Assembly (NCBI RefSeq): GCF_018282095.1
Contig: NZ_CP074128.1
Location: 62,001 to 126,000 of the forward strand
Length of the DNA: 64,000 bases
Reading direction: 5' to 3'
Source of the DNA: Pseudovibrio brasiliensis
Lineage (GTDB): Bacteria > Pseudomonadota > Alphaproteobacteria > Rhizobiales > Stappiaceae
The translations under genes and the position numbers were made by a program. The notes beneath the pieces were generated by a model. It saw nothing but the letters and a program-made list of their open reading frames with translations, did not search any database and was not told the DNA's origin. Position 1 is the first letter of the stretch. Every line of letters begins with the position of its first letter. Positions 1 through 30,527 of this stretch are shown in pieces.

Positions 1-265
1 TGTGATAGTAGCGGCGATCTCCATGCAACAGAATGTCCGTCACGCCATGCGCAACGATAAGCGCTTCCAGAAACAGCTCCCAGTTCTCTTCCGGCTCTGC
101 AAAATGGATGGAGTCAGTCTGCTCCCAGTCATGCACATCACTGCCGCAAAAATGCACCTTCAGCGTCATCGCACCCAGTTGCTCCAGATGGTGCGCTGTG
201 CGTGCGTAGTATCTGGAAAGAGGCCCTTGCAGTAGCAAAATGCAGCGGTTGTTTTCTGAAGTCAT
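1..265 (-). CDS. KpsS-like capsule polysaccharide protein, partial (3' end outside window)
   Basis: Only the first 88 codons are visible, from the ATG at 265. The N-terminus runs MTSENNRCILLLQGPLSRYY and the visible part ends in GDRRYYH. The QGPLSRYY start and the GDRRYYH segment match the opening of Capsule_synth (KpsS/LipB) proteins, and the neighbouring gene has a similar ADRRPYH segment. Family members act at the cytoplasmic face in making or attaching the poly-Kdo linker of capsules. The start codon overlaps the upstream gene's stop (ATGA at 265-262), so the two are translationally coupled in the capsule-export operon. It is the second KpsS-like copy in tandem. It could also be a KpsC-like protein, because the diagnostic C-terminal part is not seen. 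Confidence 0.7.
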   Translation of the reverse strand, partial: MTSENNRCILLLQGPLSRYYARTAHHLEQLGAMTLKVHFCGSDVHDWEQTDSIHFAEPEENWELFLEALIVAHGVTDILLHGDRRYYH

Positions 266-1566
266 TTGTCACTCCAGTAACAATCATCTGGAATAGGAGT
301 ACCCGCCGCCTTGGCCTGCGCCAGACGCGGCGGTGTTTCAACATAAGCGCCATGCCCGTTGACGCCGTCATTCAATATGCGTTTCATAAACTCTTTTGCA
401 GCCAGCTGCCGGCCTTCGGGATTGAAAAAGCTTCCACGCACCTGAATGGTATGTCCCATGAGCTTTTCCAGATCGTGATAAAGGTCAGCATTCGGCTTGA
501 AAGGTTCCTTCCAAAAGTCACCCAAAGAGCGCTGATCCGTCAATCCGGCAATATCATAGACAGCGGTGCCCATCGCTTTCACTGGCACCCCAATACTGAG
601 AGATTCCATGCCCACCGTACTGTTCACCAGCACACAGCCACGGGAATGCTTGAGCAGTTCTCTCAGGTTCCCGCCATCAATGATAATAGTCCGGTCCTGA
701 CATCCAAACTCCGCTGCAACATCACGGATAACCTGCGGCCAGTTCTCCACGTTGTTGTCAAACGGATGAAGCTTGAACACCAGCTTGTTGTCAGCAGGCG
801 CACTTTCCGCAAACGTGCTGAAAAGCTCCCGAATAAAGCTGGAAAGGTGCTTGTAGTGTGAGTGGTGCCGGATCTGATAATCCCCCTGCATCTGCATGGG
901 AACCACAAAGTAGTTGGCGCGCTCCTCAACAAGCCGTGCAATAGTCTCTTCCGCTTCTACGCCAAGCCGCTTCTGACGCATCAACCGCGGTATGTAACTG
1001 AAGTAATCACGGAACGGATGGTAATACCGATCACGCTGATAAAATGGGTAGAGGTAAGGAAAGAACACCGGAATGAGGTTACAAATCACCTCATTGGTCG
1101 CTTCCTGCAAAAAGGCATGCGGAAACCGCCCCGCCGCCCGAAGGTCCGGCAGATCAGCCGCGCATTTCTGGATCTGTGCAGGATCATTGGGGAAGTGAGA
1201 GTAGACGCCCATCCCACCACGCTCCAGCGTGATCCAGTCCGGTCGCATATATCCAAATTCATAGGCAAAAGTGTTGATGCCGCGCCTCATGGCAACATCA
1301 TGCGCAACACGATGATAAGGCCGACGATCCGCATAATAGAGGATGTCCGTCACCCCCTTCTCATCAATCAGCTTCTCAAGCCTGGCGCGCCAGTTCTTCA
1401 ACCGCCCCCAATAATTCTTCGCGCCCAACCCAACACGAAAGTACCAGTCACTCAATGAAAAATTGACAACAGTATAAGCAATGCCTAGCGCCTCAAATTC
1501 CTTCACCAACGCCCGACAAAACCCGGATGGATGAGACTGCAAAATAAGAACCGACCGCCCTGACAT
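262..1566 (-). CDS. KpsS-like capsular polysaccharide biosynthesis/export protein
   Basis: A 434-residue soluble protein with the pattern of the Capsule_synth family (KpsS/KpsC/LipB). It has an N-terminal LILQSHPSGF segment, ADRRPYH near residue 100, a central Y/R-rich segment, and a C-terminal nucleotide-sugar-transferase-like half with KLHPFDNN and VNSTVGMESLS (S-T-V-G-x-E). The family is known for Kdo-linker synthesis on the phospholipid anchor of exported capsules; the exact sugar here is inferred. It lies 14 bases downstream of kpsT and overlaps the next KpsS-like gene by four bases, so it belongs to the export operon. Its base composition is normal for the window, unlike the AT-rich kpsMT just upstream. 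Confidence 0.85.
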   Translation of the reverse strand: MSGRSVLILQSHPSGFCRALVKEFEALGIAYTVVNFSLSDWYFRVGLGAKNYWGRLKNWRARLEKLIDEKGVTDILYYADRRPYHRVAHDVAMRRGINTFAYEFGYMRPDWITLERGGMGVYSHFPNDPAQIQKCAADLPDLRAAGRFPHAFLQEATNEVICNLIPVFFPYLYPFYQRDRYYHPFRDYFSYIPRLMRQKRLGVEAEETIARLVEERANYFVVPMQMQGDYQIRHHSHYKHLSSFIRELFSTFAESAPADNKLVFKLHPFDNNVENWPQVIRDVAAEFGCQDRTIIIDGGNLRELLKHSRGCVLVNSTVGMESLSIGVPVKAMGTAVYDIAGLTDQRSLGDFWKEPFKPNADLYHDLEKLMGHTIQVRGSFFNPEGRQLAAKEFMKRILNDGVNGHGAYVETPPRLAQAKAAGTPIPDDCYWSDK

Positions 1567-1580
1567 GATACTCTGCCCAG

Positions 1581-2237
1581 CTACTTAAGCTGGTTCTCCC
1601 GATGCACAGCCAGTGCTTCATCAATTGAATCATACATAGTGAGATTACCCTCATGAAGCAAACATGCAGTGTCACAGAGTTTTTTTATTGTAGCTTCTGA
1701 ATGAGAAATCATAATAATGTTTGCGTGTTTCAGTTTTGTTTGAAATACTTCATCGCACTTCCGCTTAAAGCGAGCATCTCCTACAGCTGTAACTTCATCA
1801 ATTAAATAACATTTAAAATTTATAGCCATGCTTATTCCGAAGGCTAAACGTGCTCTCATACCACTCGAGTATGTTTGAATAGGTAAAGTCATTGACGGTC
1901 CAAGCTCGGAGAAATCTTCTACAAACTCCACCATTCTTTCTGTATCTTCACCATACATGCGCGCTACAAAACGTACGTTTTCGATTCCTGTCATTTGACC
2001 TGCAAAACCACCACCAAAACCAAGCGGCCAAGAAATATTTACGTTGCGTTTAATTTGTCCACTATCTGGTAACTCAGCACCCGCAATTAGACGCATTAGA
2101 GTTGACTTACCGGCTCCATTATGACCCAATATTCCGATATTCTTTCCCTTCGGGAAACGGGCTGTTAAACCACTTAAAATAGTTTTGGTGACACCCTTAA
2201 GACGGTAAGTCTTACGTACATCGCGAAACTCAATCAT
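1581..2237 (-). CDS. kpsT: Capsule ABC exporter ATP-binding protein (KpsT)
   Basis: A 218-residue ATPase that powers export of capsular polysaccharide with KpsM. Walker A is GHNGAGKS at residues 38-45, the signature is YSSGMRARLAFG, and Walker B is CYLIDEV followed by the D-loop-like AVGD. The short length and absence of a C-terminal carbohydrate-binding domain fit KpsT/group 2 capsule exporters rather than Wzt O-antigen exporters. The start codon overlaps the kpsM stop by one base (TAATG), a sign of coupled translation. The gene is clearly more AT-rich than the rest of the window, as in many horizontally exchanged capsule loci. Confidence 0.93.
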   Translation of the reverse strand: MIEFRDVRKTYRLKGVTKTILSGLTARFPKGKNIGILGHNGAGKSTLMRLIAGAELPDSGQIKRNVNISWPLGFGGGFAGQMTGIENVRFVARMYGEDTERMVEFVEDFSELGPSMTLPIQTYSSGMRARLAFGISMAINFKCYLIDEVTAVGDARFKRKCDEVFQTKLKHANIIMISHSEATIKKLCDTACLLHEGNLTMYDSIDEALAVHRENQLK

Positions 2238-3004
2238 TAATTAGATTTCTTTCTGTACAGGCGTTCTCCATAGAATCCGACCAGTATAAGAGTTGTAATC
2301 CATATTATTAGGTATGATTTATCAAGAACTACGCTGTGGTAGTTTCCATAATAACCAACGCGGAACCATTCGACACCGTGAAGTATCGGATTCCACGCGA
2401 GTAACTTTACAATGTTAGTTGGAAAGTCGCTAGGAACGTAAAAAATGCCAGACAAGAAAAATAAAGGTCGACTTATTATTGCTTCGAGTTGCTTCCAAGT
2501 CGGCCAGAGTCTAAACAATACAGCATTCGTTACGCCAGCGCCTAAACCAAGTAAGGTTAGCATAAAGAATGCTAGGGCGCATTCTTCGATGTGAACCGGG
2601 AAGGGGGCATCGTCTGTCCATATAATTGTCGAAAAAAAGACAATCAATATTACAAGGTAAGTAAGCAATATTAATATGTACTTCGATATCAAAATGTCAG
2701 TCTGGTTCACCAGAGGGTAGCTGAGCAATCCTTTGCTAGAGTTAACTGCTGTCATTAATGATCCGGAAAGCTTCGAGTATGTCTGGAAAGGCAAAAGTCC
2801 GCTCGCAAAAAATAAAGCGAAACTAGTTCCAAACGCAGGTGATCTACCAACGGTGGAGAAAATTAAAACCAACAGCAGTGTGCCAAGAGCCGGATTTACG
2901 ATCGCCCACAAGTAACCAAGTTGAGTATTTCCGAAAGCTGTTCTTGTTTCTCGTAGAACAAGAGCCCCAATTACTCTCACTTGCGTTGAAACTACACTTT
3001 CCAT
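2237..3004 (-). CDS. kpsM: Capsule ABC exporter permease (KpsM, ABC-2 family)
   Basis: A 255-residue inner-membrane protein of the ABC-2 family with about six hydrophobic helices and the amphipathic N-terminal VIGALVLRETRTAFG typical of polysaccharide exporters. The segment GTSFALFFASGLLPFQTYSKL and the C-terminal WNPILHGVEWFR are conserved in KpsM/BexB-type proteins. With KpsT it forms the cytoplasmic-membrane pore for the finished, lipid-anchored polysaccharide. It is placed between kpsE (nine bases upstream) and kpsT (one-base overlap). The gene is strongly AT-rich, with local stretches near 30% GC, in contrast to the flanking KpsS-like gene. Confidence 0.93.
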   Translation of the reverse strand: MESVVSTQVRVIGALVLRETRTAFGNTQLGYLWAIVNPALGTLLLVLIFSTVGRSPAFGTSFALFFASGLLPFQTYSKLSGSLMTAVNSSKGLLSYPLVNQTDILISKYILILLTYLVILIVFFSTIIWTDDAPFPVHIEECALAFFMLTLLGLGAGVTNAVLFRLWPTWKQLEAIISRPLFFLSGIFYVPSDFPTNIVKLLAWNPILHGVEWFRVGYYGNYHSVVLDKSYLIIWITTLILVGFYGERLYRKKSN

Positions 3005-3013
3005 TATTTTGCT

Positions 3014-4393
3014 CTACTTGAGGTGGTCACGAATGGAATAGGTGATAACAGTAGCAAGAGCCCACATTGCAAACAAAGCAACAAGAAGTATTAGAGAGTT
3101 TATTACTCGTCTTGGATAAATGGCATCTTCAGGTTTGGAGGGCGGATTGAACACAGCAAGATATCTTTGCTGCCTATCTGCTTCAGCTCGCGAACGCTCC
3201 AAACCAGCAAGGGCCGCAGTGTAAGCTTGTTGCGCGAATTCTTGTTCAACAACAAGTTCTTCATAATTAGCGAGTAAGCTTGATAAAGAAGATAAGCGAT
3301 CCGTCGCCCCTGAAGGTTCTTGCGAAGATGTTAAATTTCTCCCGCTAATCTCATCTTTTTTGTTCAAAATTTGCTTTATAAGTACTTCTTCTTGCTTTCG
3401 TAATTGGCGGATTGTAGGAGAGCTTTCATCGATGGTACCAACTAGCGTTGCAAGTCGAGATCTCGTATCTAATAGTTGCTTCTCTAAACCAGCAATTAAT
3501 TCGATTTGAACCTCTGCATTTCTGGTTGGATCAATAGAGCTTTCTGCACTTCGAAAATCTTTCATTCGCATTCTGATTATCTTTAAGCGTAGCTCTGCTC
3601 GTCTGACTTCTTCTTCCGCGAACTTTACAGCATCTCTGCGCGCATTCTGAGATAAAGTATTAACAAGTTCAGCTCCATAGGAAAGAACTCTCGTGGCGAT
3701 GCGCTCTGTCATCTCTGGTGTGAAGGCTTGGACCTCTACTTCAATAATACTTGAAGTATTATCAAAACTCGTTGAAATCATGCCCTGCCAATAACCTACT
3801 AACTCTTCTATAGGAAGTTTGTCGTCAAGTCGATAAATGAAGTCAATATCACTATCACTGAAATGAGTGATAATATCTTCGTCGCTGCTGAGACGTTCGA
3901 CAACTTCTCTGCCTCTCAAATAATCCATTAAAATGAAAGAGTCAGTTGTTGTTGTACCCACACTAGCCAAACCTGTAAGGGCTCCAAGAAAATCGCCGCC
4001 GGCTGTCGTTCCATCCATGCCGCGTACCGAGAAACCCACAGTTGAAGAGTAGCGGTCTGATGCGATGAAAAGAAAATAAGTTGAGCCCAAGGCACCTGGT
4101 ACCAACACCATAAGCGCAAGTGAAAGCGCCAATAGCCTTCTTCTTAATTGTTGTGGGCGTAAATTGCGAAAGTTGAAAAAATCTTTATCCTGAATTCCTT
4201 TCGACTGATTGCTCTTGTCGATTGGTAAAGCAACTACAGATGCAACTTTTTTTAAAGGAGAAGCAGCTTTTACAGGTTGCTTTGTTGTTTTCTCTGTTTG
4301 GATCTTAGGAGCAAGCTTCGTTTGCTTCTGGTCTGAAGTTTTAGACGCAGTGGGGTGAATTTCTGCAACTTTCGCTGTTGACCCTTTTTCCAT
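3014..4393 (-). CDS. kpsE: Capsule export inner-membrane/periplasmic adaptor (KpsE-like)
   Basis: A 459-residue polysaccharide co-polymerase-type protein. It has a cytoplasmic N-terminal extension of about 80 residues rich in Lys, Thr, Pro and Gln, a first membrane helix at about 90-115 (LLALSLALMVLVPGALGSTYFLF), and a periplasmic domain. A long coiled coil follows (about 245-400; EEEVRRAELRLKIIRMRM, IAGLEKQLLDTRSRL, LLANYEELVVEQEFAQQAY), then FNPPSKPEDAIYPRR and a C-terminal helix near 435-455. This is the KpsE/BexC/CtrB architecture, which bridges KpsMT to the outer-membrane channel. It sits directly upstream of kpsM and downstream of the Wza/KpsD-like gene. Only the low-complexity cytoplasmic tail is unusual. 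Confidence 0.9.
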   Translation of the reverse strand: MEKGSTAKVAEIHPTASKTSDQKQTKLAPKIQTEKTTKQPVKAASPLKKVASVVALPIDKSNQSKGIQDKDFFNFRNLRPQQLRRRLLALSLALMVLVPGALGSTYFLFIASDRYSSTVGFSVRGMDGTTAGGDFLGALTGLASVGTTTTDSFILMDYLRGREVVERLSSDEDIITHFSDSDIDFIYRLDDKLPIEELVGYWQGMISTSFDNTSSIIEVEVQAFTPEMTERIATRVLSYGAELVNTLSQNARRDAVKFAEEEVRRAELRLKIIRMRMKDFRSAESSIDPTRNAEVQIELIAGLEKQLLDTRSRLATLVGTIDESSPTIRQLRKQEEVLIKQILNKKDEISGRNLTSSQEPSGATDRLSSLSSLLANYEELVVEQEFAQQAYTAALAGLERSRAEADRQQRYLAVFNPPSKPEDAIYPRRVINSLILLVALFAMWALATVITYSIRDHLK

Positions 4394-4564: not shown

Positions 4565-5761
4565 TCAAAAAGTGCTCGCCGTTTTGCTAATTGCGAGTGT
4601 TCCGCTCAATATTTTTATGAACTTATTAAGTTCAGCTCCATAAGCGCTTGAGACATAAACAACATCTTTGTCTCTCAAAGTGAACAGCTGACCTTTGAAG
4701 TAGGAGCGGGCATCTCTCATGTTTAGGCGATAGATCACAGGAACTTTGCCTGAGTTTGAGCCGCGATACTCCGTTTTAAGTTGTGCAATTACCTGCGGAT
4801 CTTCATAGCGGAATACGAAGAGGCCTTGAGAGTTTGCTGCATTCTTATCCAGACCACCGATACGGCCTAATGCTTCAACGAGTGAAACATTGGATGCTTG
4901 CAGTGGATACTCGCCAACCTTTGGTACGGCACCAAATGCTGTAAACGTCTGCGGATCGTGTGTTACAAAAATTCGATCACCCGGGCGTACGTAGATATTT
5001 TCATCGTTGTTGAGGAAAACGTTGCTCAGAAGTTGTTTTGCCTGTCTGCCATTTCGTGAGACTGAGACATAGCTTTCTGTTGCAGGAGATGCGTTACCTC
5101 CAGCATTGGCGACAACATCAAGCAGTTTTTTGCCGCTAAGATCTAATGGATACTGACCTGGCTTGCGAACGGCACCATTCACAGTGACGAGGCTGCTGGC
5201 GTTTTGCTTCAGAGTTACGATTACTTGCGGGTTGGTCGCCTTGCGATCGAGTGCCACCTGGAGCGCTTCCTGAAGCCGCTCAACAGATTTACCTCGCGCG
5301 TGTACCTTGCCGACGTAAGGGATTGTAATCGCGCCGCTTTGGTTGACCATGAACGGACCAAGTTCTACGCCACCGGCCTGACCATTTGGAGTAAACAGGC
5401 GATCATTGCCTTGCTCCCAGACGACAACAGAAACAGTATCGCCGATCCCGACTATATGCTTAGGCGCCCATTTCCCGCCAGTAAATACCTTCGCCAGACC
5501 GTTCGGCTGGTAAGCTGAAAGGACTGAGGTAACATTATCATCCAAGTCAATCAGGTGATAATCAAAAGGCTCGGCACGGCGCTCGGTAGAAGCTGCTTGT
5601 ATCTCCGAAGAAATCGGCCCTGCGGAGGGTAGAGCAGCACATCCTGCCAAGAGCGCAAGGAGCGGAGCTACAACCATTGTTGACTTTAGGAAATGCGAAG
5701 TCGCTGAAGCCTTATTGGAATTCGCTAACACACGAGAAAATTTCATAAAAATTCTATCCAC
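4565..5761 (-). CDS. Outer-membrane polysaccharide export lipoprotein (KpsD/Wza-like)
   Basis: A 398-residue protein with a lipoprotein signal: hydrophobic APLLALLAG followed by Cys41 (lipobox LAGC), then a polysaccharide-export domain (PF02563 type; VGIGDTVSVVVWEQ, GAITIPYVGKVHARGKSVERLQEAL) and SLBB repeats (VTVNGAVRKPGQYPLDLSGKKLLDVVANAGG; FTAFGAVPKVGEYPLQ). It would form the outer-membrane channel for capsule export. The first ATG at 5761 gives a long n-region; a second Met at 5746 is equally plausible. It is the promoter-proximal gene of the leftward capsule operon, and 171 bases separate it from kpsE, leaving room for a second promoter. Size is close to Wza and KpsD-short forms. Confidence 0.88.
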   Translation of the reverse strand: MDRIFMKFSRVLANSNKASATSHFLKSTMVVAPLLALLAGCAALPSAGPISSEIQAASTERRAEPFDYHLIDLDDNVTSVLSAYQPNGLAKVFTGGKWAPKHIVGIGDTVSVVVWEQGNDRLFTPNGQAGGVELGPFMVNQSGAITIPYVGKVHARGKSVERLQEALQVALDRKATNPQVIVTLKQNASSLVTVNGAVRKPGQYPLDLSGKKLLDVVANAGGNASPATESYVSVSRNGRQAKQLLSNVFLNNDENIYVRPGDRIFVTHDPQTFTAFGAVPKVGEYPLQASNVSLVEALGRIGGLDKNAANSQGLFVFRYEDPQVIAQLKTEYRGSNSGKVPVIYRLNMRDARSYFKGQLFTLRDKDVVYVSSAYGAELNKFIKILSGTLAISKTASTF

Positions 5762-5992: not shown

Positions 5993-6760
5993 ATGTTCAA
6001 ACCCAAGTCGATTCTCATCACTGGTGCCAGTTCGGGTTTAGGGCGGGCTATTGCGCTGGGGTATGCTGAGGCGGGTGTAACGCTTTGTTTGACAGGGCGA
6101 AATGAGGAGCGGTTGGGGGAGACTGTTAGGTCTGCGGAGGAACTTGGTTGCCGGGTGCTTTGGAAGCCGTTGGACATTTGCAATGCCCAAGTTGTTCAAA
6201 GTTGGGTCGATGAACTGGAGCAGGAGGTTTCCCTGGATCTGGTGATTTCCAATGCGGGTATAACAGGTTCTCATGGCATTGATGGTTCTGTTGAAACTGC
6301 CGAGACGGCGCATGCACAGATTGCGACGAATCTTGGGGGAACGGTCAACCTGCTCACGGCGGTTGCTCCTTACATGCAAAAGCGCAAAAGCGGGCGCATT
6401 GCTTTGATCAGTTCGCTTGCTGGAATGCAGCCGATTTCAGACGGTCCTGCTTATGGGGCCTCGAAGGCAGGCATCATTGCTTATGGGGAGGCAATGCGCG
6501 ATCACTTGCACAAGTGGGGAGTGTTCGTTTCGGTGATTTGCCCAGGCTATATTCTCACACCGATGGCAGACCAGTTTAAGAGCTGGCGTCCCTATGAGTT
6601 CACTGCGGAACAGGCGGCAGAAAAGATCAAGAAGGCGATTGCGCGGAAGAAGGCATTTTATGCATTTCCGTGGCAGCTCGCCTTGAGCATTCGGATTGGA
6701 AAATTGCTGCCATGGCAGTTGCGGCGGCATGGAAATCAGCGCTTTAATTATCAGCGCTGA
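5993..6760 (+). CDS. rkpH: SDR-family reductase, RkpH-like (3-ketosphinganine-reductase type role proposed)
   Basis: A 255-residue classical short-chain dehydrogenase. The nucleotide-binding motif TGASSGLG is at residues 10-17, NAG follows the fourth strand, and the active-site pair is Tyr154/Lys158 in YGASKAG. The C-terminus has a basic hydrophobic tail (FPWQLALSIRIGKLLPWQLRRH), as in membrane-associated ketosphinganine reductases. The start was chosen at the ATG with a strong ribosome binding site. In Sinorhizobium, rkpH is an SDR linked to rkpA and rkpG and required for K-antigen. Here it converges on the oxoamine synthase gene, 19 bases away. I infer that it reduces the beta-keto group of the aminoketone product. 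A generic SDR is the alternative. Confidence 0.8.
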   Translation: MFKPKSILITGASSGLGRAIALGYAEAGVTLCLTGRNEERLGETVRSAEELGCRVLWKPLDICNAQVVQSWVDELEQEVSLDLVISNAGITGSHGIDGSVETAETAHAQIATNLGGTVNLLTAVAPYMQKRKSGRIALISSLAGMQPISDGPAYGASKAGIIAYGEAMRDHLHKWGVFVSVICPGYILTPMADQFKSWRPYEFTAEQAAEKIKKAIARKKAFYAFPWQLALSIRIGKLLPWQLRRHGNQRFNYQR

Positions 6761-6779
6761 TTCAAATAGTTAGCGTCAA

Positions 6780-8141
6780 CTAGGCCGACATGACTTGTTG
6801 AATAGAGATGGGGTTGCTGTTGTAAGTCGCCATCTCTTCATTCACCAGCTGAACTGCCTGGTCCAGCTGCACCTCTGTGTGCTCTGACGTAATGAAAAAG
6901 CGTAGACGAGCGGATTTTTCTGGCACAGCAGGATAAATGATTGGCAGTACATTCAGCCCACGATCCAGCAGGCGAGCAGCCAGAACGGTTGCCTTCAAGG
7001 AATCACCGACCATAATTGGAACCACAGCGCAGCCTTGGCTTACGCCGGTATCAAGATTTGCCGCTTGTGCTTTTTCCAGGAAGTACTGACCATTTGATTG
7101 TGCTGCCTGAACACGCTCTGGCTCTGCTTCCATCAAGCGAATGGCTTCACATACGGCGGCCGCAATTGGCGGAGCGATGCCAACGCTGAACACAAAGCCG
7201 GAAGCGGTAAGTTTCAGGTAATCAACCAGGTCACTACACCCGGCAATATAGCCACCACATCCAGCTAGTGTTTTGGAGAATGTACCCATCCAGATGTCGA
7301 CGTCTTTGGGATCAATCTGGAAGTGCTCAGCGATCCCGCGACCCGTCTTACCAAGAATGCCGATGGAGTGCGCCTCATCGACCATGAGCCACGCACCATA
7401 CTTTTTCTTAATCTCAATAAGACGTGGCAAATCCGGATAATCGCCATCCATGGAGTACACGCCTTCCACCACGATCAGAACGCGTGGGTGCTTGTGCGCG
7501 CGCAATTCCAGAATGTTTTCAAGGGCATCAAGATTGTTGTGCGGGAAGGACTGGCGGACAGCACCGGAGAGTTTGGCGCCGGTTACAATGCTGTTGTGGA
7601 TGTAGCTGTCGTGGATGATCAGATCATCCGGCTGCATCAGCTGGCCGATGCTGGTGACGTTGGTGGCATGCCCGCTGACAAATGCAACAGAGCTCTCGAC
7701 ACCATGCATCTTCGCAATGAGTTCTTCCAGCTCTGTGTGGATCACACGCTCACCAGCCACAACTCGGCTTGCGCTGGCAGAGATGCCATAGTGGTCAACG
7801 GCGTTTTTCGCGGCTTGCTGAACCTTTTCGTGGCCGTTCAATCCGAGATAATCGTAGGAGGAGAAGTTAAGGTACGTCTCTCCATCAATTTGGGTTGTCG
7901 CCCCGGCACGTGCTTCATGGGCGCGGAAGAACGGGTTGTTGATCTGCAACAGATCCGCCGCGGCCTTTTGAAGGCGAATTTCTTTAAAACCCGGCAAGTC
8001 AGCAAATTTTGGTGCGATTACCTGTGTCTGAGCTGGTTTGGTTGCCTTTGGCTTCGGAGCAGCCGACTTTGAGCGCCGCACAGCGCTCAAAGCACTTAAA
8101 CGGTCGTCTTTGCTCAGTTTTTTCTTTTCTGACTTGGCCAT
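6780..8141 (-). CDS. rkpG: Alpha-oxoamine synthase (8-amino-7-oxononanoate synthase/SPT family), RkpG-like
   Basis: A 453-residue PLP enzyme of the alpha-oxoamine synthase family, which condenses an acyl thioester with an amino acid and releases CO2. The core starts near residue 70. Motifs are NFSSYDYLGL (92-101), SGHATN, DEAHSIG with Asp255 and His258, and the PLP lysine Lys290 in GTFSKTLAGCGGY. An N-terminal basic, Lys/Ala/Pro-rich linker of about 50 residues is extra relative to BioF. The ATG overlaps the stop of the giant synthase gene by one base (TAATG), so both are made together. This argues that it acts on the chain carried by the synthase's ACP rather than in biotin synthesis. Matches Sinorhizobium RkpG in context and family. 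Confidence 0.87.
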   Translation of the reverse strand: MAKSEKKKLSKDDRLSALSAVRRSKSAAPKPKATKPAQTQVIAPKFADLPGFKEIRLQKAAADLLQINNPFFRAHEARAGATTQIDGETYLNFSSYDYLGLNGHEKVQQAAKNAVDHYGISASASRVVAGERVIHTELEELIAKMHGVESSVAFVSGHATNVTSIGQLMQPDDLIIHDSYIHNSIVTGAKLSGAVRQSFPHNNLDALENILELRAHKHPRVLIVVEGVYSMDGDYPDLPRLIEIKKKYGAWLMVDEAHSIGILGKTGRGIAEHFQIDPKDVDIWMGTFSKTLAGCGGYIAGCSDLVDYLKLTASGFVFSVGIAPPIAAAVCEAIRLMEAEPERVQAAQSNGQYFLEKAQAANLDTGVSQGCAVVPIMVGDSLKATVLAARLLDRGLNVLPIIYPAVPEKSARLRFFITSEHTEVQLDQAVQLVNEEMATYNSNPISIQQVMSA

Positions 8142-11100
8142 TAATTCAAAATTCTTGCGTTCTTGCCTTGATGGGAATCGAGGATTTCGCGAACGCTCGA
8201 TTTTTGAGCGTCATCGAGATCATCAGAAAGGTGCTGGCTTGCCAGAGTGTTGTGCGAGCCTTCCTCAGCAGAGGCATCACCACCTTCACGTTTGCGGAGC
8301 TTTTGTAGAATCTGAGCTGCAAAGTCATCCAAACATGTCCCGCCGGAGATAGAAACCAGCGGAATCTCCAGATTGAAACGTTTCTGGATACCCATTCGCA
8401 GTTCCAGCCCCATCAACGAATCCATACCGAATTCGGCCAGTGGCCGCTGATGTGAGATGTCTTCCGCAGGAAGGCGTAGGATACGGCCAATTTCGCCGGC
8501 TAGAATATGCGCGACGACCTCTTTAGCTTCTGCATCAGATTTGCCTTCAATCAATGAAAGAATGTCTGTTGCACCATCACTGTCGCCATCAACGTCAGTG
8601 CGGCCCACGATCTCCTGGAAGAGAGGCTTACTGAGTAGGGACAGAGACTGATGTGCTGCAGCCCACGCGAAGCGGCCTATATGGACAACTGCACTTGGGG
8701 CAGATCCATCATCCTGTTCCATCGCCAGCTTGAGGATATCCAGACCTTCACGTGCCTTGATGGTTGCTTCACCAAGGTGACGGGAAAGCTTGTCGGAAAC
8801 ATCGGCGTTTCTGGCAAGGAAGCCCACATCGCCGATCGCACCCCAGCCAACAGCTGTAGCAGGCCTACCCGCTTTACGGCGCGCTCTTGCGAGGCCTTCC
8901 AGATAACCATTGGCCGCCACATAATGAGACTGACCTGGGTTGCCAATCAGTGTTGTTGCTGAAGAGAACAGAATGAATTGTTCAAGCTCGTCGTCGCGCG
9001 TCAGCTCATCAAGCAGACTTGCACCCTGAACTTTGGGCTCCAGAACCTTGCGGAAGCGCTTTTCGTCAAGTTGCTGAATGATACCGTCATCAAGCACCAT
9101 CGCTGCATGGGTAACGCTCTTGATTGGCGCGGACTGGCGCAGTTCGGTCAACAGGGTGTTGATCGCAGCCCGGTCGGTCACATCACAGCTGACTGCAGAG
9201 ACGTTAACACCTTTGTTGGCAAGTGTCTCAAACAGCTTCTCATGCGCTTCACTGACGTTTGCAGAGCGGCTTGTCAGAGTGATACGACGTGCGCCGTTGT
9301 CCGCCATCCAACGGCAGATCTCTAGGCCAAAGCCCCCCAGTCCGCCAATGACAACATGATGCCCATCAGAGGAGAACTCCAGCGGTTTACGTTCCTGAGG
9401 GACGCGTACCTCTTCTGGCTCAGGAGGTGTAATCAGGATCTTCCCGATGTGGCCGGAGCGCTGCATCAGACGGAAGGCATCCTGCACGTTGCGACCTTCG
9501 AACACGCGATATGGCAGTGGAGTGAAGGTGCCATCTTTGATCAGCTCAAAGACATCTTCAATCAGCTTGCGGGCCAGATCACTGTCATGCAGAAGGATCT
9601 GGTCCAGATCAATGCCGAAGTAAGACACATTGCGACGGAATGGGCGCAGGCCGATTTTGGTATTTGCGTAGTAATCGCGCTTACCCAGCTCAAGGAAGCG
9701 GCCAAATGGGCGAACAATGTTGATACTCGCTTCCATCGCTTCGCCAGCGAGGGAGTTCAGAACAGCATGGACACCTTTCCCATCTGTGATTTCCATGACC
9801 TTGTCAGGGAAATCGAGACTACGGGAATCGAGAATTTGGTCTGCTCCAAGCAGGCGCAGAATCTCACGTTTCTCTTCAGAACCGGCTGTTGCGATAATTT
9901 TTGCACCAACGTGCTTTGCAATCTGCAATGCAGCAAGGCCAACGCCACCAGCGCCACCATGGATGAGAACCCATTGATCTTCTTTGAGTTCTCCAAGGTG
10001 AATGAGAGAGTAGTAAGCTGTCAGGAAGGCAACCGGATAGGTTGCAGCTGATACAAGATCCTGGCTCTGATCAAGCTTTGCAACTGCGAACTTAGGACAC
10101 GTCACATAAGATGAATAACCACCAGAAGTGAAGGCAACCACTTTGTCTCCAACTGAGACATCGCTCACATTCTCTCCGACACGGGTAACCGTACCGGAGA
10201 TCTCCAGACCCAGATTTGGGCCGCCATATCCATCTTCGAGAGCTTCTTCAGGAAGCATTCCCAGGGTCCACATCACATCACGGAAGTTAAGGCCCGTTGC
10301 CGCAACCTTGATCTCTACATGATCCTGTGTAGGCTCAATACGCTCCTGCCCGCGCCAATCCAGATGGTTCAGAGATCCCGCTTCAGAGAAGTTGAGTTCA
10401 ACATTTTCTGCAGGTACCCAGGAAGATTGGCCAAATCCGGATTTGACGCGTGAAACCACCTGATTTTCATGTGGCAGGAGAAGCTCGTTCTCCTGATTTT
10501 GTGAGAACACAGCCTCCAGAACATCTGAGGTAATGTCCTCAATGGACTTATCAAGTGCAACGTCCAGTGTGAGTGGTGTAAGCTCTGGTGCTTCGTTTCC
10601 AAGCACACGTGCAAACGTCCAGGCAGCACTTTGTACTGGCACTTCCTGCTTTGAGTTATGGCCACTGCCGCCAGGAGCAACAAATGCAAGCTGCCCAGCA
10701 AGCCCCGGATAGGCTTTGACAAGACCGACGCAGGTTGCGCAGCGCTTCATCACCTGATCGACAGGATTATCGCCAGTTTCAGCCAAACCATAAAGATGGA
10801 TGATCGTTTTCTGATCAGCATCTAGGAAGGATGATCCCGCCAGAGCAGTCTTCCATCCGCTTGCCTCATTCAGATCAAACTGATCGCTGTCAGCATCGAG
10901 AATAGTGATATTGCATGAAGCGAGGCGTTCATCCGCTTTGATCGCTTTGGCAATCTCCTGTTCTTGCTTCGCATTACCGGTAAGAACGAGGAGAGCATCG
11001 CTATCTGTCAGATCAAGTGCTGCACTTGTCTGCTGATCAGTTTTGTTGGCTTTAGACGTTGCATTCAGCAAAACAACGGAAGCACCATCTTTCAGCGCTT

Positions 11101-14100
11101 CTATTGAAATCGGTGTCTCAAATGAAGTGTTGCCAAACAGATCCAGCCAGTCATTGCTTGACTTAAGTGGACCGACTGGGAACTCATCGGACAACGAACC
11201 TGCAAACCAGTCTTGAGACAAGCCGAAGGCAACGTCATGGAAGACGTCGGTCAGAGGCTCAATCGCCAGGAACTGGCCACCTTCTGAGAGCGATTGCCCC
11301 AACTTGTCGAAGAGTTGAGGCTCGCTCTGACACGCTGTGTGGAGCAGGCCAGAAGAGACAATAATGTCGAATGGCCCTTGTTCCAGGGCTGCTTCCCAGG
11401 TGTGACCACTATCCAGATTGCTGGTGTCGAAAACAGTAATGTTCGGCTCGTCCAGGACACTGGCTGTCAAACGGGCAGCGCTTTTATGATTGCTGTCCGC
11501 GATAGAAATACGCGTAATCCGATTTGGAAGAAGCTGCTGAACATCCTTTGCCAGGTTCAGGCCAGAGCCGCTCAGGTCCAAAACGTGTAGTGGCGTGTTC
11601 AGATCCCAATCAGTAAGCGCAGTCTTCAACCATTGTGACACGCTCTTGCTGCGTGTTTGTGCTTCTGGAGAAGAATACCAATACTGTTCTAACATCGCGC
11701 TGGAATGCTCGAGATTTTCCTCATCAACAGTACCGCGTTGAAGGCCCTCAAGAACATGTTTGCGGGTGGTCGCAAGGATTGTTGCCGCAGCGATATCTTT
11801 CGGACTTTCCTCAAGCACACTTTCAACCAGTAAATCGAACTCCGGCAGTTCAAAATCGCTGTTCAAATCAAATCGACCTGCACCACAGTCTGTCGCCGCA
11901 CCGGCTTCTTCCAGAATACTTAGAAGATTGATGAAATAGCGTCGGTGATTGACAGGCAGGCTTTCGATGGTAACGGTCTGATCATCATCGGCAAATTTTG
12001 AGATGATATCGAAAGCCGTCCGCTGTGCCGCTGCGTTGAGCAGCAAGTAAGCTTCCCGCTCCGCTTCGTCTTCAACGGTTCTGAATTTTTCGGCAACGTA
12101 ATCTTCAATTGCAGGGAAGACGTGAGCCAGTTTATTTGCCTGAGCTGATGGGCTGCGCTGAAGAGCAGACTCTACGCGATAAATCAGATCGGAAGGATTG
12201 TCTTTTCTGCCGAGCTCAGTTGCTCTGAAACGTCCGCCTTTGATTGCGATGATGACGTTGTCATCTTCATCGAAGATCTGGAAGTCCGCCAGAATTGAGA
12301 GATCAGACGCACGTTTGACCTGAATGCGCACATAAGCAGGGGATGAACCTGATTTGTACTGACGAACTTTATCAAAGAAGATCGGCACGTAAGCCTTAGG
12401 ACGGCTGTTTTGTGTCGTTGTTTCTCTGAACAAAGACAGCAACCCGTGGAAACACCCATCTAGCTCAGCGGGGTGAATACCGAAGGCGGAGACTTGATCA
12501 ACTTCGTCAAGAGCAGACAGATGGACGATAAATGTACCTTGATCTACTTGGGAGACGTTTTGAGTGCGCTGGAAGCGTAGCCCAAATTCTAATCCATAGG
12601 TCAGAGCAGCTTTATAAATTTCCTCGCCACTGTTGATGAGGCTCGCAGCTTCAAAGTCCAGCTGAATGTCAGGTGCTGTTGTCTCCAGCTTCCCAACGCG
12701 GCCAACGGCATGCAGCGTCCAGTCATCGCCACTCAGGCGCATGCGACTAGAGATTTTAATTGTGCCTGTTTCCTCAGAGATTTCAGTTTGAACTTCCGTC
12801 AGATATTCGTCGCTCAAGACCAACGCTTGCAAAATATCCATGGAGCGAAGTTCAACAGCTTCAGAGCCAAACAAAGAGATGCCAGCTGCAAGAGCCATCT
12901 CAACATAACCGGCACCTGGGAAGATCATCTGGCCGTTGATGACGTGATCTTCCAGGAATGGAACGGTGAAGCGGTCCAGATGGGTCGTCCAGAGATTGTA
13001 ATTGTTGTTTGGGCGCCATCCAAGCAGAGGATGTTCTCCCCCCCGGAAGATGCCCATGTTGGCTTCATGACTGTTTTCAAAGCGGAAGCTTTTGTTTTGC
13101 CAAGGCAGAGGTGGCAGATTGACTGGCTCCTCTGGGTTCTGGCCAAAAAGCTTATCTGTATCGACTTTAATGCCTGCAACAAAAGCGCGGGCCACCAGAT
13201 TAATGACCGGATCTGCACCATTCAGCTGCTCATTGGACAAACTGGAAAGGACGGAACCTTTTCCGCCTTTGTCAGCTGCAACCTGGCGGAGATAACTCTG
13301 CAGAATTGGCTTTGGTCCAATCTCGATGATCGTGTCAGCACCAAGATCCAAAGCAGTGGCAACAGCTTTTGAAAACAGCACTGGTTTGCGAAGGTTCCGC
13401 CACCAGTAATCTGCGTTCAAATCCTCACCGTCAGCGACAGCGCCTGTCACGGTGGAGATGAAAGGGATATGGCTTGCAGTAGATTCAACCGTCCCCACTG
13501 CATTGCGGAATGGTCGTTCAACAGGTTCAATAAGTTGACTGTGGAACGGGTAGTTCAACGCAACTTTTCTGAAGGCAACATGGTTGGCCCGGGCAAACTT
13601 TGCAAAGCCGTCCATGTCTTCTTTAGTGCCAGACAAGCTGACTGACTTTAGACTGTTTTCAGCTGCAACTTCGATGGAGTCAAAGCCGCTTTGGGCAACA
13701 AGGCGGCGTGCTTCGTCGGCAGGAAGTACAAGTGCTGCCATGGTGCCGTGACCAGCAACCACTTCTTGTTCTGCAGATCTATGGAAAACAAGGTTGACGG
13801 CGGTTTCTAAGGTGAGTGCGCCTGCAATGTGAGCGGCAGCGACTTCGCCGATGCTGTGACCCAACACCATGTCTGGTTTGAGTGCATAGTCTTCCAGAGC
13901 CTTGCACAGGGCGACCTGAACAGCAAACAGAAGCGGTTGCGCGATGCTGGTCTTTTTGAGATCGTCTTCAAGCGTTTCACTGAAGAGTTCAGTTTTCAGT
14001 GACCAGCCGGACAAGCCAGTGAAGATTGCATCTACATTATTGAAGACCTGCTTAAACGATCCGTTTGCAGCGTAGGCATCACGGCCCATGCCTGCCCACT

Positions 14101-15721
14101 GAGCACCATTTCCTGAAAATGCAAACGCGCATTTCCCGGTGCTTGCAGCTTTGTTGGAGTAGATGACATTCGTGTTTTTCTTATCATTCGTAAAGTCGGA
14201 AAGCGCCGTCTTCAATAGTGTGAGATCAGCACCTGTAAACACAGCTTTTTCTTGGAAAGCGCGCTTCCGATGGAATGTTGCTGCACAAATCTTCTGACTA
14301 TCCTTTTCAGTCAAAAGATTTTCATGCGCATACTTTTGAGCAAGTTCAACAAGGGCTTCTTTGGTTGGCGCGCTAAGAAGCAAAGTACTCTGATTTTGCT
14401 GAGTATTGAGCTGAGTTACATTTTCAGTTGGCGTATCTGGATCGCTGATGATGACGTGGGCGTTTGTACCCCCAAAACCAAATGAGTTCACGCCAGCAAA
14501 ACGTGGAGCACCAGTGCGCGGAAGCTCAACACCTTCACCGGCGACTTTAATGTTTAAGGCATCAAAATCGATATCCGGGTTTGGATCTTTAAAGTGCAGA
14601 CTGGCCGGGAAGTAATCATTCTGCAGAGCTAGGATTGATTTTGCTAGTCCAACCAACCCTGATGCCGGCTCCAAGTGACCAACATTGGTTTTTACAGAGC
14701 CAATAGGCAGCGGCGTGCGCCGTTTTTGTGCGAGAGTTCGACCAATGGAACCGGCTTCAGCGGGATCCCCCACACGAGTACCTGTACCGTGGGCTTCAAC
14801 AAATGCGAGCTGGTTTGGATCAATTCCGTGCGTCTTATATACGCGATCAAGTAGATTGGCCTGTTCCACATCCGATGGAAGGGACATGCCAACTGTTCGA
14901 CCATCAGAGTTGACGTCAACAGCAACGATATCTGCGTGTGATCGCTGGCCTTTCCAACGCGGAGCGTCCTTCCGTTTGATGACGAGTGCAACACCACCTT
15001 CAGAACGCACATAGCCGTTACCATTGGTATCGAAGGCTTTACACTGACCATCTGGAGACAACATGGTTGCCTGCGCAAAGCCGACAAATGGAAACGGACT
15101 CGCAAGCACGTTAACACCTGCCACAATCGCACAATCAATACGACCGGAACTCAGCGCTCGATAGGCTTCGTGAAGCGCAACCAGAGAAGAAGAGCATGCA
15201 GTGTCGACCGTAAAGCTTGGGCCTTTAAAGTCGAAGATGTAAGAAAGACGATTGGAGATAATAGATAGAGTGTTGCCGGTCATAAAGTGACCAGTTGCTA
15301 CATTCGGATCGAATAGGCTTTCATTAGCATAATCGAGAGCAGACGCACCTACATAAACACCAACATGATCGCCTGCAAGAGTCTCAGGCGAAATGCCTGC
15401 GTCTTCAATCGCTTCCCAAGCAAGCTGGAGTAGGATCCGTTGCTGAGGATCCATTTGCTCCGCTTCACGAGGTGAAATGCCAAATGCGGTTGGATCAAAA
15501 TCCCAGAGATTGTCTAGAATGCCAGCCTTGAAAGTATATGCCTTTCCTGGCTCTGACACCCGAGGATGTAAGTAGCGGAAATGAGACCAGCGATCTGTAG
15601 GAATTTCAGTGATGCTGTTTTGCTCTGACTTCAGCAAATGCCATAATGCTTCTTTGTTTGAAGCTCCAGGTACACGAACTGATAGGCCTACAATTTCCAA
15701 CACGCAGCAAAACTCACTCAA
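8141..15721 (-). CDS. rkpA: Type I reducing polyketide/fatty-acid synthase, RkpA-like (KS-AT-DH-psiMT-ER-KR-ACP)
   Basis: A single 2,526-residue multienzyme. The KS has Cys176 in DTACSSSL, with later EAHGTGT and NVGHLE histidines. The AT has Ser623 in GHSIGE and YPFHS at its specificity position. The DH has His926 in the DHVINGQMIFPG segment and Asp1088 in LDGCFHG. A methyltransferase-like region near 1380 has a degenerate SAM motif (DLSGSGLN). The ER NADPH loop GGAGGVG is near 1922, the KR has GGLGGFG near 2125 and Tyr2267, and the ACP Ser2435 is in GMDSLMGLE. There is no thioesterase, so release must come from another protein, most likely the coupled oxoamine synthase. The start is TTG at 15721, or GTG at 15703, which has a better ribosome site (GAGTGAG). 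Length and neighbours match Sinorhizobium RkpA. It extends a fully reduced acyl chain. Confidence 0.9.
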   Translation of the reverse strand: MSEFCCVLEIVGLSVRVPGASNKEALWHLLKSEQNSITEIPTDRWSHFRYLHPRVSEPGKAYTFKAGILDNLWDFDPTAFGISPREAEQMDPQQRILLQLAWEAIEDAGISPETLAGDHVGVYVGASALDYANESLFDPNVATGHFMTGNTLSIISNRLSYIFDFKGPSFTVDTACSSSLVALHEAYRALSSGRIDCAIVAGVNVLASPFPFVGFAQATMLSPDGQCKAFDTNGNGYVRSEGGVALVIKRKDAPRWKGQRSHADIVAVDVNSDGRTVGMSLPSDVEQANLLDRVYKTHGIDPNQLAFVEAHGTGTRVGDPAEAGSIGRTLAQKRRTPLPIGSVKTNVGHLEPASGLVGLAKSILALQNDYFPASLHFKDPNPDIDFDALNIKVAGEGVELPRTGAPRFAGVNSFGFGGTNAHVIISDPDTPTENVTQLNTQQNQSTLLLSAPTKEALVELAQKYAHENLLTEKDSQKICAATFHRKRAFQEKAVFTGADLTLLKTALSDFTNDKKNTNVIYSNKAASTGKCAFAFSGNGAQWAGMGRDAYAANGSFKQVFNNVDAIFTGLSGWSLKTELFSETLEDDLKKTSIAQPLLFAVQVALCKALEDYALKPDMVLGHSIGEVAAAHIAGALTLETAVNLVFHRSAEQEVVAGHGTMAALVLPADEARRLVAQSGFDSIEVAAENSLKSVSLSGTKEDMDGFAKFARANHVAFRKVALNYPFHSQLIEPVERPFRNAVGTVESTASHIPFISTVTGAVADGEDLNADYWWRNLRKPVLFSKAVATALDLGADTIIEIGPKPILQSYLRQVAADKGGKGSVLSSLSNEQLNGADPVINLVARAFVAGIKVDTDKLFGQNPEEPVNLPPLPWQNKSFRFENSHEANMGIFRGGEHPLLGWRPNNNYNLWTTHLDRFTVPFLEDHVINGQMIFPGAGYVEMALAAGISLFGSEAVELRSMDILQALVLSDEYLTEVQTEISEETGTIKISSRMRLSGDDWTLHAVGRVGKLETTAPDIQLDFEAASLINSGEEIYKAALTYGLEFGLRFQRTQNVSQVDQGTFIVHLSALDEVDQVSAFGIHPAELDGCFHGLLSLFRETTTQNSRPKAYVPIFFDKVRQYKSGSSPAYVRIQVKRASDLSILADFQIFDEDDNVIIAIKGGRFRATELGRKDNPSDLIYRVESALQRSPSAQANKLAHVFPAIEDYVAEKFRTVEDEAEREAYLLLNAAAQRTAFDIISKFADDDQTVTIESLPVNHRRYFINLLSILEEAGAATDCGAGRFDLNSDFELPEFDLLVESVLEESPKDIAAATILATTRKHVLEGLQRGTVDEENLEHSSAMLEQYWYSSPEAQTRSKSVSQWLKTALTDWDLNTPLHVLDLSGSGLNLAKDVQQLLPNRITRISIADSNHKSAARLTASVLDEPNITVFDTSNLDSGHTWEAALEQGPFDIIVSSGLLHTACQSEPQLFDKLGQSLSEGGQFLAIEPLTDVFHDVAFGLSQDWFAGSLSDEFPVGPLKSSNDWLDLFGNTSFETPISIEALKDGASVVLLNATSKANKTDQQTSAALDLTDSDALLVLTGNAKQEQEIAKAIKADERLASCNITILDADSDQFDLNEASGWKTALAGSSFLDADQKTIIHLYGLAETGDNPVDQVMKRCATCVGLVKAYPGLAGQLAFVAPGGSGHNSKQEVPVQSAAWTFARVLGNEAPELTPLTLDVALDKSIEDITSDVLEAVFSQNQENELLLPHENQVVSRVKSGFGQSSWVPAENVELNFSEAGSLNHLDWRGQERIEPTQDHVEIKVAATGLNFRDVMWTLGMLPEEALEDGYGGPNLGLEISGTVTRVGENVSDVSVGDKVVAFTSGGYSSYVTCPKFAVAKLDQSQDLVSAATYPVAFLTAYYSLIHLGELKEDQWVLIHGGAGGVGLAALQIAKHVGAKIIATAGSEEKREILRLLGADQILDSRSLDFPDKVMEITDGKGVHAVLNSLAGEAMEASINIVRPFGRFLELGKRDYYANTKIGLRPFRRNVSYFGIDLDQILLHDSDLARKLIEDVFELIKDGTFTPLPYRVFEGRNVQDAFRLMQRSGHIGKILITPPEPEEVRVPQERKPLEFSSDGHHVVIGGLGGFGLEICRWMADNGARRITLTSRSANVSEAHEKLFETLANKGVNVSAVSCDVTDRAAINTLLTELRQSAPIKSVTHAAMVLDDGIIQQLDEKRFRKVLEPKVQGASLLDELTRDDELEQFILFSSATTLIGNPGQSHYVAANGYLEGLARARRKAGRPATAVGWGAIGDVGFLARNADVSDKLSRHLGEATIKAREGLDILKLAMEQDDGSAPSAVVHIGRFAWAAAHQSLSLLSKPLFQEIVGRTDVDGDSDGATDILSLIEGKSDAEAKEVVAHILAGEIGRILRLPAEDISHQRPLAEFGMDSLMGLELRMGIQKRFNLEIPLVSISGGTCLDDFAAQILQKLRKREGGDASAEEGSHNTLASQHLSDDLDDAQKSSVREILDSHQGKNARILN

Positions 15722-30026: not shown

Positions 30027-30527
30027 CTACCGCAGATCCGTAAGAGCCTCATCTTCCACACGAATTCGCAGGGCAAGGATGGCACCGTTAAAGCCGGAGA
30101 ACAGGAAGGCGATCGGGAACAAGCCGAGCACCATAGGGGCGGTGAAGATCTCCAGTGCCACCAGCAAGTAATTGGGATGACGCACAAACGCAAACGGTCC
30201 TTTGGTCACCAGCGGCGTTTTCGCCACAATAATGCGCGTGGTCCAGCGACGACCCATGCTGAGCAGAATCCAGAGCCGGAACACCTGCAAAACGGCGAAC
30301 ACCATTAGCCACGGAATGGAGACCGGCTTGTCGTAGCCCAGCACAACAAGTGCGATGATCCACGCCACATGCACGCTGACAATCAGCGGGTAGTGGGAGG
30401 CGCCAACCTCATAAGCCCCTTCCTCCAGTAAGCGTTTGGTGTTGCTGCGGGCGATGACCAGCTCGGAGAGGCGCTGAAGGATGATGAACCCTAAAAACAG
30501 CAGGGCAGCTAAGGAAGCATCAGGCAT
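30027..30527 (-). CDS. Isoprenylcysteine carboxyl methyltransferase (ICMT)-family membrane protein
   Basis: A 166-residue integral membrane protein with about four to five helices and the ICMT/PEMT C-terminal signature VTKGPFAFVRHPNYLLVALEI (RHPxY) and terminal RIRVEDEAL. Bacteria lack prenylated CaaX proteins; family members beside type III PKS genes (Streptomyces SrsB is the known case) O-methylate alkylresorcinol-type lipids using S-adenosylmethionine. The start codon overlaps the 3' end of the PKS gene by eight bases, so the two are co-translated. The product is inferred from the neighbour, not proven. Confidence 0.88.
   Translation of the reverse strand: MPDASLAALLFLGFIILQRLSELVIARSNTKRLLEEGAYEVGASHYPLIVSVHVAWIIALVVLGYDKPVSIPWLMVFAVLQVFRLWILLSMGRRWTTRIIVAKTPLVTKGPFAFVRHPNYLLVALEIFTAPMVLGLFPIAFLFSGFNGAILALRIRVEDEALTDLR

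Follow-up and report, generated by a model that had tools for sequence, protein, structure and literature searches.

We analyzed a 64,000-nucleotide stretch of the Pseudovibrio brasiliensis genome (contig NZ_CP074128.1, positions 62,001 to 126,000; hereafter the window), in which genes for a giant polyketide synthase (PKS), an alpha-oxoamine synthase (AOS) and a short-chain dehydrogenase/reductase (SDR) were found in one locus with capsule genes. We explain this locus as a pathway in which the three enzymes would make a sphingoid base that serves as the lipid acceptor of the capsule, a reading to which we give a probability of roughly 0.6. At the sequence level, the PKS and the AOS were found to be intact, the AOS fell into one clade with those of related loci, and the linkage to KpsS-type capsule genes was conserved. 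By analogy with a characterized Pseudomonas pathway, the substrate in the window would be serine, the product sphinganine and the chain long. The product is very likely an amino-alcohol lipid and the AOS likely uses serine; from the gene context and co-occurrence, the sphingoid lipid is probably a dedicated capsule lipid.

In the proposed pathway, the PKS would iteratively build a long, saturated, malonyl-derived chain on its acyl carrier protein (ACP) domain. The AOS, replacing a thioesterase, would take the chain from the ACP and join it to an amino acid (L-serine being the likeliest) in a decarboxylative condensation that yields 3-ketosphinganine, and the SDR would reduce the ketone to sphinganine. 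The sphingoid base would then serve as a dedicated lipid end, to which KpsS-family enzymes attach the 3-deoxy-D-manno-oct-2-ulosonic acid (Kdo) linker; the capsule chain would next be extended, and exported by KpsM-T-E-D. Many relatives have an additional, predicted phosphoglycerol transferase, which would convert sphinganine into an acceptor resembling phosphatidylglycerol.

The synthase, the oxoamine synthase and the reductase

The Pfam search of the PKS revealed the domain order KS-KS_C-AT-DH-ER-KR-PP-binding, with neither a methyltransferase nor a thioesterase match. The catalytic residues of the KS (C176/H311/H349), AT (S623/H727), DH (H926/D1088), KR (S2254/Y2267) and ACP (S2435) were identical in all 80 aligned PKSs longer than 2,300 aa, the window protein included. 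In the DH motif, P935 was kept in 79 of the 80 PKSs and Gly930 in 41. The stretch corresponding to a degenerate methyltransferase (psiMT) showed a mean identity of 21% to that of the window, and its motif-I region had no conservation. The AT motifs GHSIGE and YPFH are, as we assume, of the malonyl type, and the PKS would, judging from its sequence, work iteratively. Its TTG start at 15721 is uncertain. A second PKS-AOS copy was observed in one same-genus genome (L046, contig C1 of G005); its 20-kb stretch had no SDR match and no kpsS/C/D/E/M match.

The PKS and AOS genes join in the sequence TTAATGG, where the stop and start codons have one A in common. We compared the AOS with those of a set of 109 loci comprising the window's own locus, 20 from relatives (L044-L063; 20 stretches from 19 of the 34 other genomes with the AOS), 8 from plasmids (out of 48 matches) and 80 from a genome scan (the best 80 of 524 confirmed stretches). 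D255, H258 and the pyridoxal phosphate (PLP) lysine K290 were intact in the window AOS and in the 108 others. The window AOS was 48-94% identical to the AOSs of its set and at most 41% identical to the 33 other AOSs tested. In a tree of 94 of 142 rows, in which 32 of 80 named rows were kept, 61 set rows lay on one side of a branch with an SH-like approximate likelihood ratio (SH-aLRT) support of 94. The rows resembling serine palmitoyltransferase (SPT) formed a separate clade (SH-aLRT 100), and the control group was apart too; long branches were flagged in this tree, so its deep branching order is unsafe.

Profile ranking placed the window AOS nearest to bioF (357.7 bits, cut-off of 426 not reached), followed by SPT and related models. 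The curated SPT model gave 199.5 bits, below its cut-off of 670, and the AOS lay outside the SPT clade. Its best four sequence matches in the PDB were all SPTs. An AlphaFold model of the AOS (mean pLDDT 81) gave much the same score with every kind of AOS enzyme, human SPT ranking first; the fold therefore did not decide between SPT and BioF, and the fold search was dropped as an arbiter. At position 125, the window AOS has the Ser that is common to all ten SPT-like rows, one of which exceeds the curated SPT cut-off, while 19 of 20 control AOSs have Thr, which we take to be typical of 5-aminolevulinate synthase. Two of these 20 controls were named 5-aminolevulinate synthase by NCBIfam, L162 was not, and the tree united 19 of them.

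We saw no canonical SPT in the window genome, where the best score was 216 bits, compared with 432-835 bits in genomes with SPT-like matches (16 of the 142 genomes of the class; of the 14 controls, Caulobacter and E. coli gave a signal). Three AOS-family genes were present in this genome: the AOS described here, one nearly identical to a relative's named 5-aminolevulinate synthase, and one nearest to BioF. Separately, L162 (contig C1 of G019, about 2.06 Mb) held a different AOS, 41% identical, together with an SDR nearer to the rhizobial type, and AOSs like it (38-41% identity) occurred in G021, G024, G026, G029, G031 and G034; this AOS and SDR are possibly a second amino-lipid pathway. At about 30-35 kb of contig C4 of G030, both the AOS match, one part of which has an in-frame TGA, and Capsule_synth were in pieces, and that locus looks decayed or badly assembled.

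Three single proteins in the AOS clade of the window carry an ACP and an AOS together. They are a KS-AT-DH-ER-KR-ACP-AOS protein on a Planktothrix plasmid (L069, 7527-15125), a KS-AT-ACP-AOS protein with a long branch on a Streptomyces plasmid (L068, 10305-15128) and an AMP-binding-ACP-AOS protein in a planctomycete (L150, 7865-11308). These fusions are the best sequence evidence that the AOS may unload an ACP, and all three proteins are candidate amino-lipid synthases. Apparent PKS-AOS fusions in long open frames of G046 and G024 were ruled out, as the AOS and the ACP lie in different frames (L062 and L051). In fungi, the reducing PKS of the fumonisin toxin pathway is likewise released by an oxoamine synthase, the alanine-using Fum8.

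The window SDR and the Pseudomonas SDR that stands in the SgaC position share 40% identity. In a quick tree, the window SDR grouped with SDRs from gammaproteobacterial, betaproteobacterial and other alphaproteobacterial loci (SH-aLRT 96), the control SDR of L161 standing adjacent without support; the Sinorhizobium meliloti and Shinella SDRs were of another type, and the ketone-reducing step seems to have been filled twice. SDR matches were present in 48 of 95 PKS loci vs 6 of 20 control loci. A first-pass annotation of the window had described a thioesterase-less KS-AT-DH-psiMT-ER-KR-ACP protein coupled by TAATG to an AOS with its PLP lysine, beside an SDR with a membrane-like basic tail. Pfam and our alignments confirmed the arrangement. 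By eye, the C-terminal tail of the SDR appears basic and amphipathic; a Kyte-Doolittle scan revealed no membrane helix.

Linkage to capsule genes and to a predicted phosphoglycerol transferase

In the window, KpsM, T, E and D genes were found together with KpsS-family genes, all with scores below the NCBIfam equivalog cut-offs. A second Capsule_synth gene and a formyltransferase-like gene follow to the left of the window edge, and the window genome contains two strong PF05159 genes and one weak match.

Neighbouring genes were counted by a six-frame profile search, which replaced families obtained by greedy picking of open reading frames (ORFs) that looked antisense; since the test loci themselves supplied the profiles, they are somewhat favoured in the following counts. 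A PKS match was present in 95 of the 109 AOS loci. Matches to kpsS/C/D/E/M occurred in 59 of these 95 PKS loci and in none of 20 control loci, which surround other AOS genes from the window's relatives. KpsT was not counted, since its profile, which matched four controls, also catches other ABC ATPases. When genes resembling lipoteichoic acid synthase (LtaS-like) were included, 78 of the 95 PKS loci had kps or LtaS-like matches: kps in 20 of the 21 loci from the window and its relatives, and either type in 58 of the 74 others. LtaS-like matches were absent from the 20 control loci, and the control locus L162 showed a weak ER match. In many relatives, the gap between KpsS and the SDR held a further Capsule_synth (KpsC-like) match. 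In 13 loci, the AOS gene is immediately preceded by a gene for an LpxC-like deacetylase (e.g., L066, 11887-12801), and 11 of these loci have a GNAT gene after the AOS.

Among 61 genomes of the window's order, PF05159 was present in 34 of the 35 with the AOS vs 4 of the 26 without it (Fisher p 1.4e-11, uncorrected for kinship). One of the 34, G030, is the genome whose AOS match is fragmented. Of the five AOS-less genomes within the family, four, from three genera, also had no PF05159.

The LtaS-like gene was closely tied to this gene set. KpsS, SDR and LtaS-like genes were consecutive and co-directed in 13 loci, the SDR adjoined the LtaS-like gene in 24 loci, and the LtaS-like gene adjoined the PKS in 25. 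A profile search of the PDB with this family (E 0.001) retrieved GacH (E 5.8e-29), LtaP, LtaS and one uncharacterised protein. A structural model (pLDDT 87) had five long helices at the N-terminus, in agreement with the hydropathy peaks, and the best structural matches of its domain were GacH with sn-glycerol-1-phosphate, LtaP and LtaS, with sulfatases lower. Thr262 and the Glu, Asp and His positions, which we take to be the nucleophile and the metal ligands, showed no variation in two overlapping alignments (12 of 12 and 8 of 8 rows) that included the S. meliloti ORF between SDR and KpsS. By profile, fold and residues, the LtaS-like neighbours in the relatives are predicted phosphoglycerol transferases of the LtaS/GacH kind.

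The positive-inside count placed the catalytic domain of the LtaS-like proteins in the cytoplasm in 31 of 34 sequences and in the periplasm in 2, with 1 tie, while the E. coli controls EptA and OpgB came out as periplasmic. This count follows a rule of thumb; 1 of 35 sequences was left out for lack of the motif, several ORF starts are insecure, and for the two controls the limits of the membrane part were set manually. The cytoplasmic placement weakens the main objection to the scheme, namely that LtaS-type enzymes would act on the side of the membrane opposite to KpsS.

Comparison with known systems and competing explanations

The closest characterized system is that of Pseudomonas fluorescens MYb115. 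The main text of PMC12134224 reports that the formation of C24, C26 and C28 sphinganines requires SgaA (PKS) and SgaB (AOS), that SgaB is an SPT in vitro, with PfSgaB preferring serine over alanine and glycine, and that SgaC, an SDR, is the presumed reductase. Compounds heavier by 154 Da were most likely phosphoglycerol sphingolipids, and these lipids and the sphinganines are treated there as secondary metabolites (PMC12134224). The words "rkp", "capsul", "polysaccharide" and "LTA synthase" had no match in that main text. The window resembles this system in having an iterative PKS, an adjacent AOS and an SDR, and its PKS has the thioesterase-less KS-AT-DH-ER-KR-ACP build of the SgaAB kind. The Pseudomonas plasmid pL21564-1 carries, after the PKS and AOS, genes for PhyH, KpsC, GNAT, a member of the LtaS family, the SDR, KpsS and KpsC, and then the Kdo genes kpsF, kdsB and kdsA; its AOS and SDR fell into the clades of the window proteins. 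The MYb115 locus tags (PKS RS19805, AOS RS19800, SDR RS19775) would, at a tag step of five, accommodate four genes from AOS to SDR, a spacing that would match the plasmid, where these four genes are PhyH, KpsC, GNAT and LtaS-like. Glycerol phosphate added by such an LtaS-like enzyme would account for the 154 Da on the MYb115 lipids. The Pseudomonas loci L065 and L075 add PhyH, KpsC, GNAT and LtaS-like genes, whereas in the window the kpsDEMTS genes run in line with the PKS and an LtaS-like gene is missing.

We found a second likeness to the rkp-1 region of Sinorhizobium (rkpA, G, H, I and J). On S. meliloti pSymB, in a capsule locus whose genes we take to be those that carry the rkp letters, the PKS overlaps the AOS, and an SDR and a KpsS-like protein follow. 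The S. meliloti AOS was 53% identical to that of the window and fell into the same clade, and the window holds both the rkpA-G type pair and a KpsS-like protein. The two loci differ in the SDR type and in a PF00884 (LtaS-like) ORF between SDR and KpsS, of which no counterpart was found in the window genome; the 29-kb S. meliloti stretch had no kpsE or kpsM match. In the Burkholderiaceae capsule loci with a WcbR-type PKS, presumably those named wcb, the PKS and AOS occurred with an LtaS-like gene, and with SDR, KpsS or exporter genes in some; the LpxC-like deacetylase gene that precedes the AOS in 13 loci was not seen in the window. Passages of PMC4881576 describe the rkp-1 region as the source of a specific lipid carrier that serves K-antigen secretion, those of PMC9386255 describe RkpF as a carrier protein for the capsule, with no sphingolipid link drawn there, and RkpA/WcbR have been compared with sponge PKSs (PMC3908369).

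The canonical SPT pathway of Caulobacter and Sphingomonas has the AOS fold and the decarboxylative condensation in common with the window, but it relies on a specialised, stand-alone ACP together with an acyl-ACP synthetase rather than on a PKS, as the relevant part of PMC9386255 describes. The E. coli group 2/3 capsule loci share a KpsS-family protein and the KpsM-T-E-D exporter with the window. To our knowledge, the E. coli kps locus contains no PKS-AOS pair. Sections of PMC12220298 and PMC13410964 describe a phosphatidylglycerol acceptor in ABC-transporter capsules, as the substrate of KpsS or as the base of capsule assembly, and group 2/3 capsules are assembled in the cytoplasm.

These comparisons bear on the remaining claims of the first-pass annotation. 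Release of the chain as an aminoketone and its reduction to an amino alcohol gained support from the AOS clade, the ACP-AOS fusions and the Pseudomonas sphinganines derived from serine. The idea that the lipid may anchor or prime the capsule draws its support from gene context and co-occurrence. Membership of the Sinorhizobium rkpA/G/H proteins in the same families was borne out for the S. meliloti PKS-AOS kin and the capsule link, but the SDR in the rkpH position is of another type. The statement that the product of such loci is chemically undefined is out of date, since the SgaAB sphinganines were defined in 2025, as reported in the main text of PMC12134224.

Several observations weigh against a sphingoid capsule lipid in the window. 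The SDR scored 99.5 bits against the curated 3-ketodihydrosphingosine reductase model, whose cut-off is 400, and neither fold nor NCBIfam separated SPT from BioF for the AOS. Both kps and LtaS-like matches were missing from 17 of the 95 PKS loci, 10 of them in stretches of at least 20 kb, and G050 has the AOS with PF05159 absent. Neither a PF00884 search nor the family profile at E 1e-10 revealed an LtaS-like gene in the window genome, and the 21 own and relative loci had none. Phosphoethanolamine transferases (MCR-1 and EptA) also matched the LtaS-like fold, lower in the list, and for that reason the fold leaves the head group unsettled. Lastly, a 2005 paper reportedly describes a phospholipid anchor for the poly-Kdo capsule of S. 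meliloti 1021.

As for the missing transferase, the three PF00884 proteins of the window genome were sulfatase-like, with a Cys-x-Pro-x-Arg-like motif (by eye) and almost no similarity to the LtaS-like family. At E 1e-10, the family profile matched 3 of the 61 genomes: G060 (117 bits, another family) and, weakly, G005 (53 bits) and G027 (42.5 bits). In the window lineage, either sphinganine itself is the acceptor, or another enzyme adds the head group, or the capsule lipid differs.

The lipid could instead be a free sphingolipid, a membrane component or secreted metabolite whose genes adjoin capsule genes as surface traits gained and lost together; we consider this unlikely. MYb115 does make free sphinganines and probable phosphoglycerol-sphingolipids, according to the main text of PMC12134224, and the ten long stretches free of kps and LtaS-like matches fit this view. 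However, the consecutive KpsS, SDR and LtaS-like genes in 13 loci form a tighter bond than a shared surface function needs, PF05159 accompanies the AOS in nearly every AOS genome of the order, and the MYb115 tag spacing, as we infer, fits the PhyH, KpsC, GNAT and LtaS-like run of the Pseudomonas plasmid. It is distinctly improbable that the capsule stands on ordinary (lyso-)phosphatidylglycerol, as in E. coli, with the sphingoid lipid as an unattached helper of export or of the export complex. The anchor of S. meliloti 1021, reportedly a phospholipid to judge by the title of that paper, would agree with such an arrangement. So would the phosphatidylglycerol acceptor of KpsS in ABC-transporter capsules (sections of PMC12220298 and PMC13410964) and the action in secretion that a passage of PMC4881576 ascribes to the rkp-1 region. 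A helper of export, however, would not need genes beside KpsS and a phosphoglycerol transferase. The catalytic face of that transferase is predicted, in 31 of 34 sequences, to lie in the cytoplasm, where group 2/3 capsules are assembled.

Use of alanine or glycine by the AOS, which would yield a 1-deoxy-type amino alcohol or an aminoketone instead of a true sphingoid base, is very improbable. BioF is an alanine-using enzyme, and the bioF model ranked nearest to the window AOS; on the other hand, the four best PDB sequence matches are SPTs, and Ser125, which replaces the Thr of 5-aminolevulinate synthase, speaks against glycine. PfSgaB of the same gene set prefers serine, as stated in the main text of PMC12134224.

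Extending the preferred reading of a sphingoid capsule acceptor, we tentatively propose that a class of KpsS-dependent capsules across Pseudomonadota may be built on a sphingolipid. The PKS, AOS and SDR would make sphinganine, a transferase of the LtaS/GacH kind, atypical in its cytoplasmic orientation, would add glycerol phosphate from phosphatidylglycerol, and KpsS would put Kdo on the resulting mimic of lyso-phosphatidylglycerol; in the window lineage, the transferase step would have been lost or replaced. This model would explain the phosphoglycerol-sphingolipids of MYb115, the lipid carrier of the rhizobial capsule and the presence of an LtaS-like gene at the rkpI position. In the literature that we searched, capsule genetics (rkp and wcb, with a giant synthase, a K-antigen and no known product) and the 2025 finding of synthase-derived sphingolipids stood unjoined: no link between PKS sphingolipids and capsules was found in titles or abstract openings, most subscription journals and preprints lying outside the search. 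If both belong to one system, capsules would be anchored by sphingolipids in rhizobia, Burkholderiaceae, Pseudomonas and marine Alphaproteobacteria, capsule-mutant phenotypes may be lipid phenotypes and vice versa, and the origin of the MYb115 phosphoglycerol could be probed through a single gene.

Layout of the locus and neighbouring genes

The coordinates of the locus are listed in the table. We found no DNA-level match of the locus among plasmid records.

Table. Genes of the locus and domains of the PKS (positions in the window)
Feature	Position	Strand	Remarks
PKS, iterative type I, RkpA/WcbR/SgaA type, KS-AT-DH-psiMT-ER-KR-ACP, without thioesterase	8141..15721	-	2,526 aa; start codon uncertain
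KS domain, residues 10-470, C176/H311/H349 intact	14312..15694	-	
AT domain, residues 533-834, GHSIGE and YPFH	13220..14125	-	
DH domain, residues 897-1169, H926/D1088 intact	12215..13033	-	
Degenerate methyltransferase region, residues ~1190-1560, without Pfam match, 21% mean identity	11042..12154	-	
ER domain, residues 1777-2098, GGAGGVG intact	9428..10393	-	
KR domain, residues 2120-2297, S2254/Y2267 intact	8831..9364	-	
ACP, residues 2407-2469, phosphopantetheine Ser2435	8315..8503	-	
AOS, RkpG/SgaB type, 453 aa, PLP Lys290	6780..8141	-	TAATG overlap with PKS
SDR, proposed 3-ketosphinganine reductase, convergent with AOS gene	5993..6760	+	ATG at 5993
KpsD-like outer-membrane polysaccharide export protein	4565..5761	-	Poly_export, SLBB
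KpsE/BexC/CtrB-family export protein	3014..4393	-	TIGR01010, below cut-off
KpsM-like ABC transporter permease	2237..3004	-	KpsM model below cut-off
KpsT-like ABC transporter ATPase	1581..2237	-	profile match
KpsS-like Capsule_synth protein (Kdo transferase family)	262..1566	-	KpsS model below cut-off
Second Capsule_synth protein, 432 aa, start only in window	1..265	-	extends past left end, contig C3:60967-62265

The formyltransferase-like gene (L009, 16206-16952, minus strand) closes the capsule operon, and its kin in six same-genus loci were 40-84% identical. Directly upstream of the PKS lies a gene for a Fic-domain protein (16077-17603 of the window, minus strand), and a similar gene was observed beside the PKS in the same-genus loci L044, L046 and L047. 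Farther along the window (30027-31707, minus strand), a type III PKS resembling chalcone synthase adjoins an ICMT-family methyltransferase, a pair that may yield a methylated pyrone or resorcinol.

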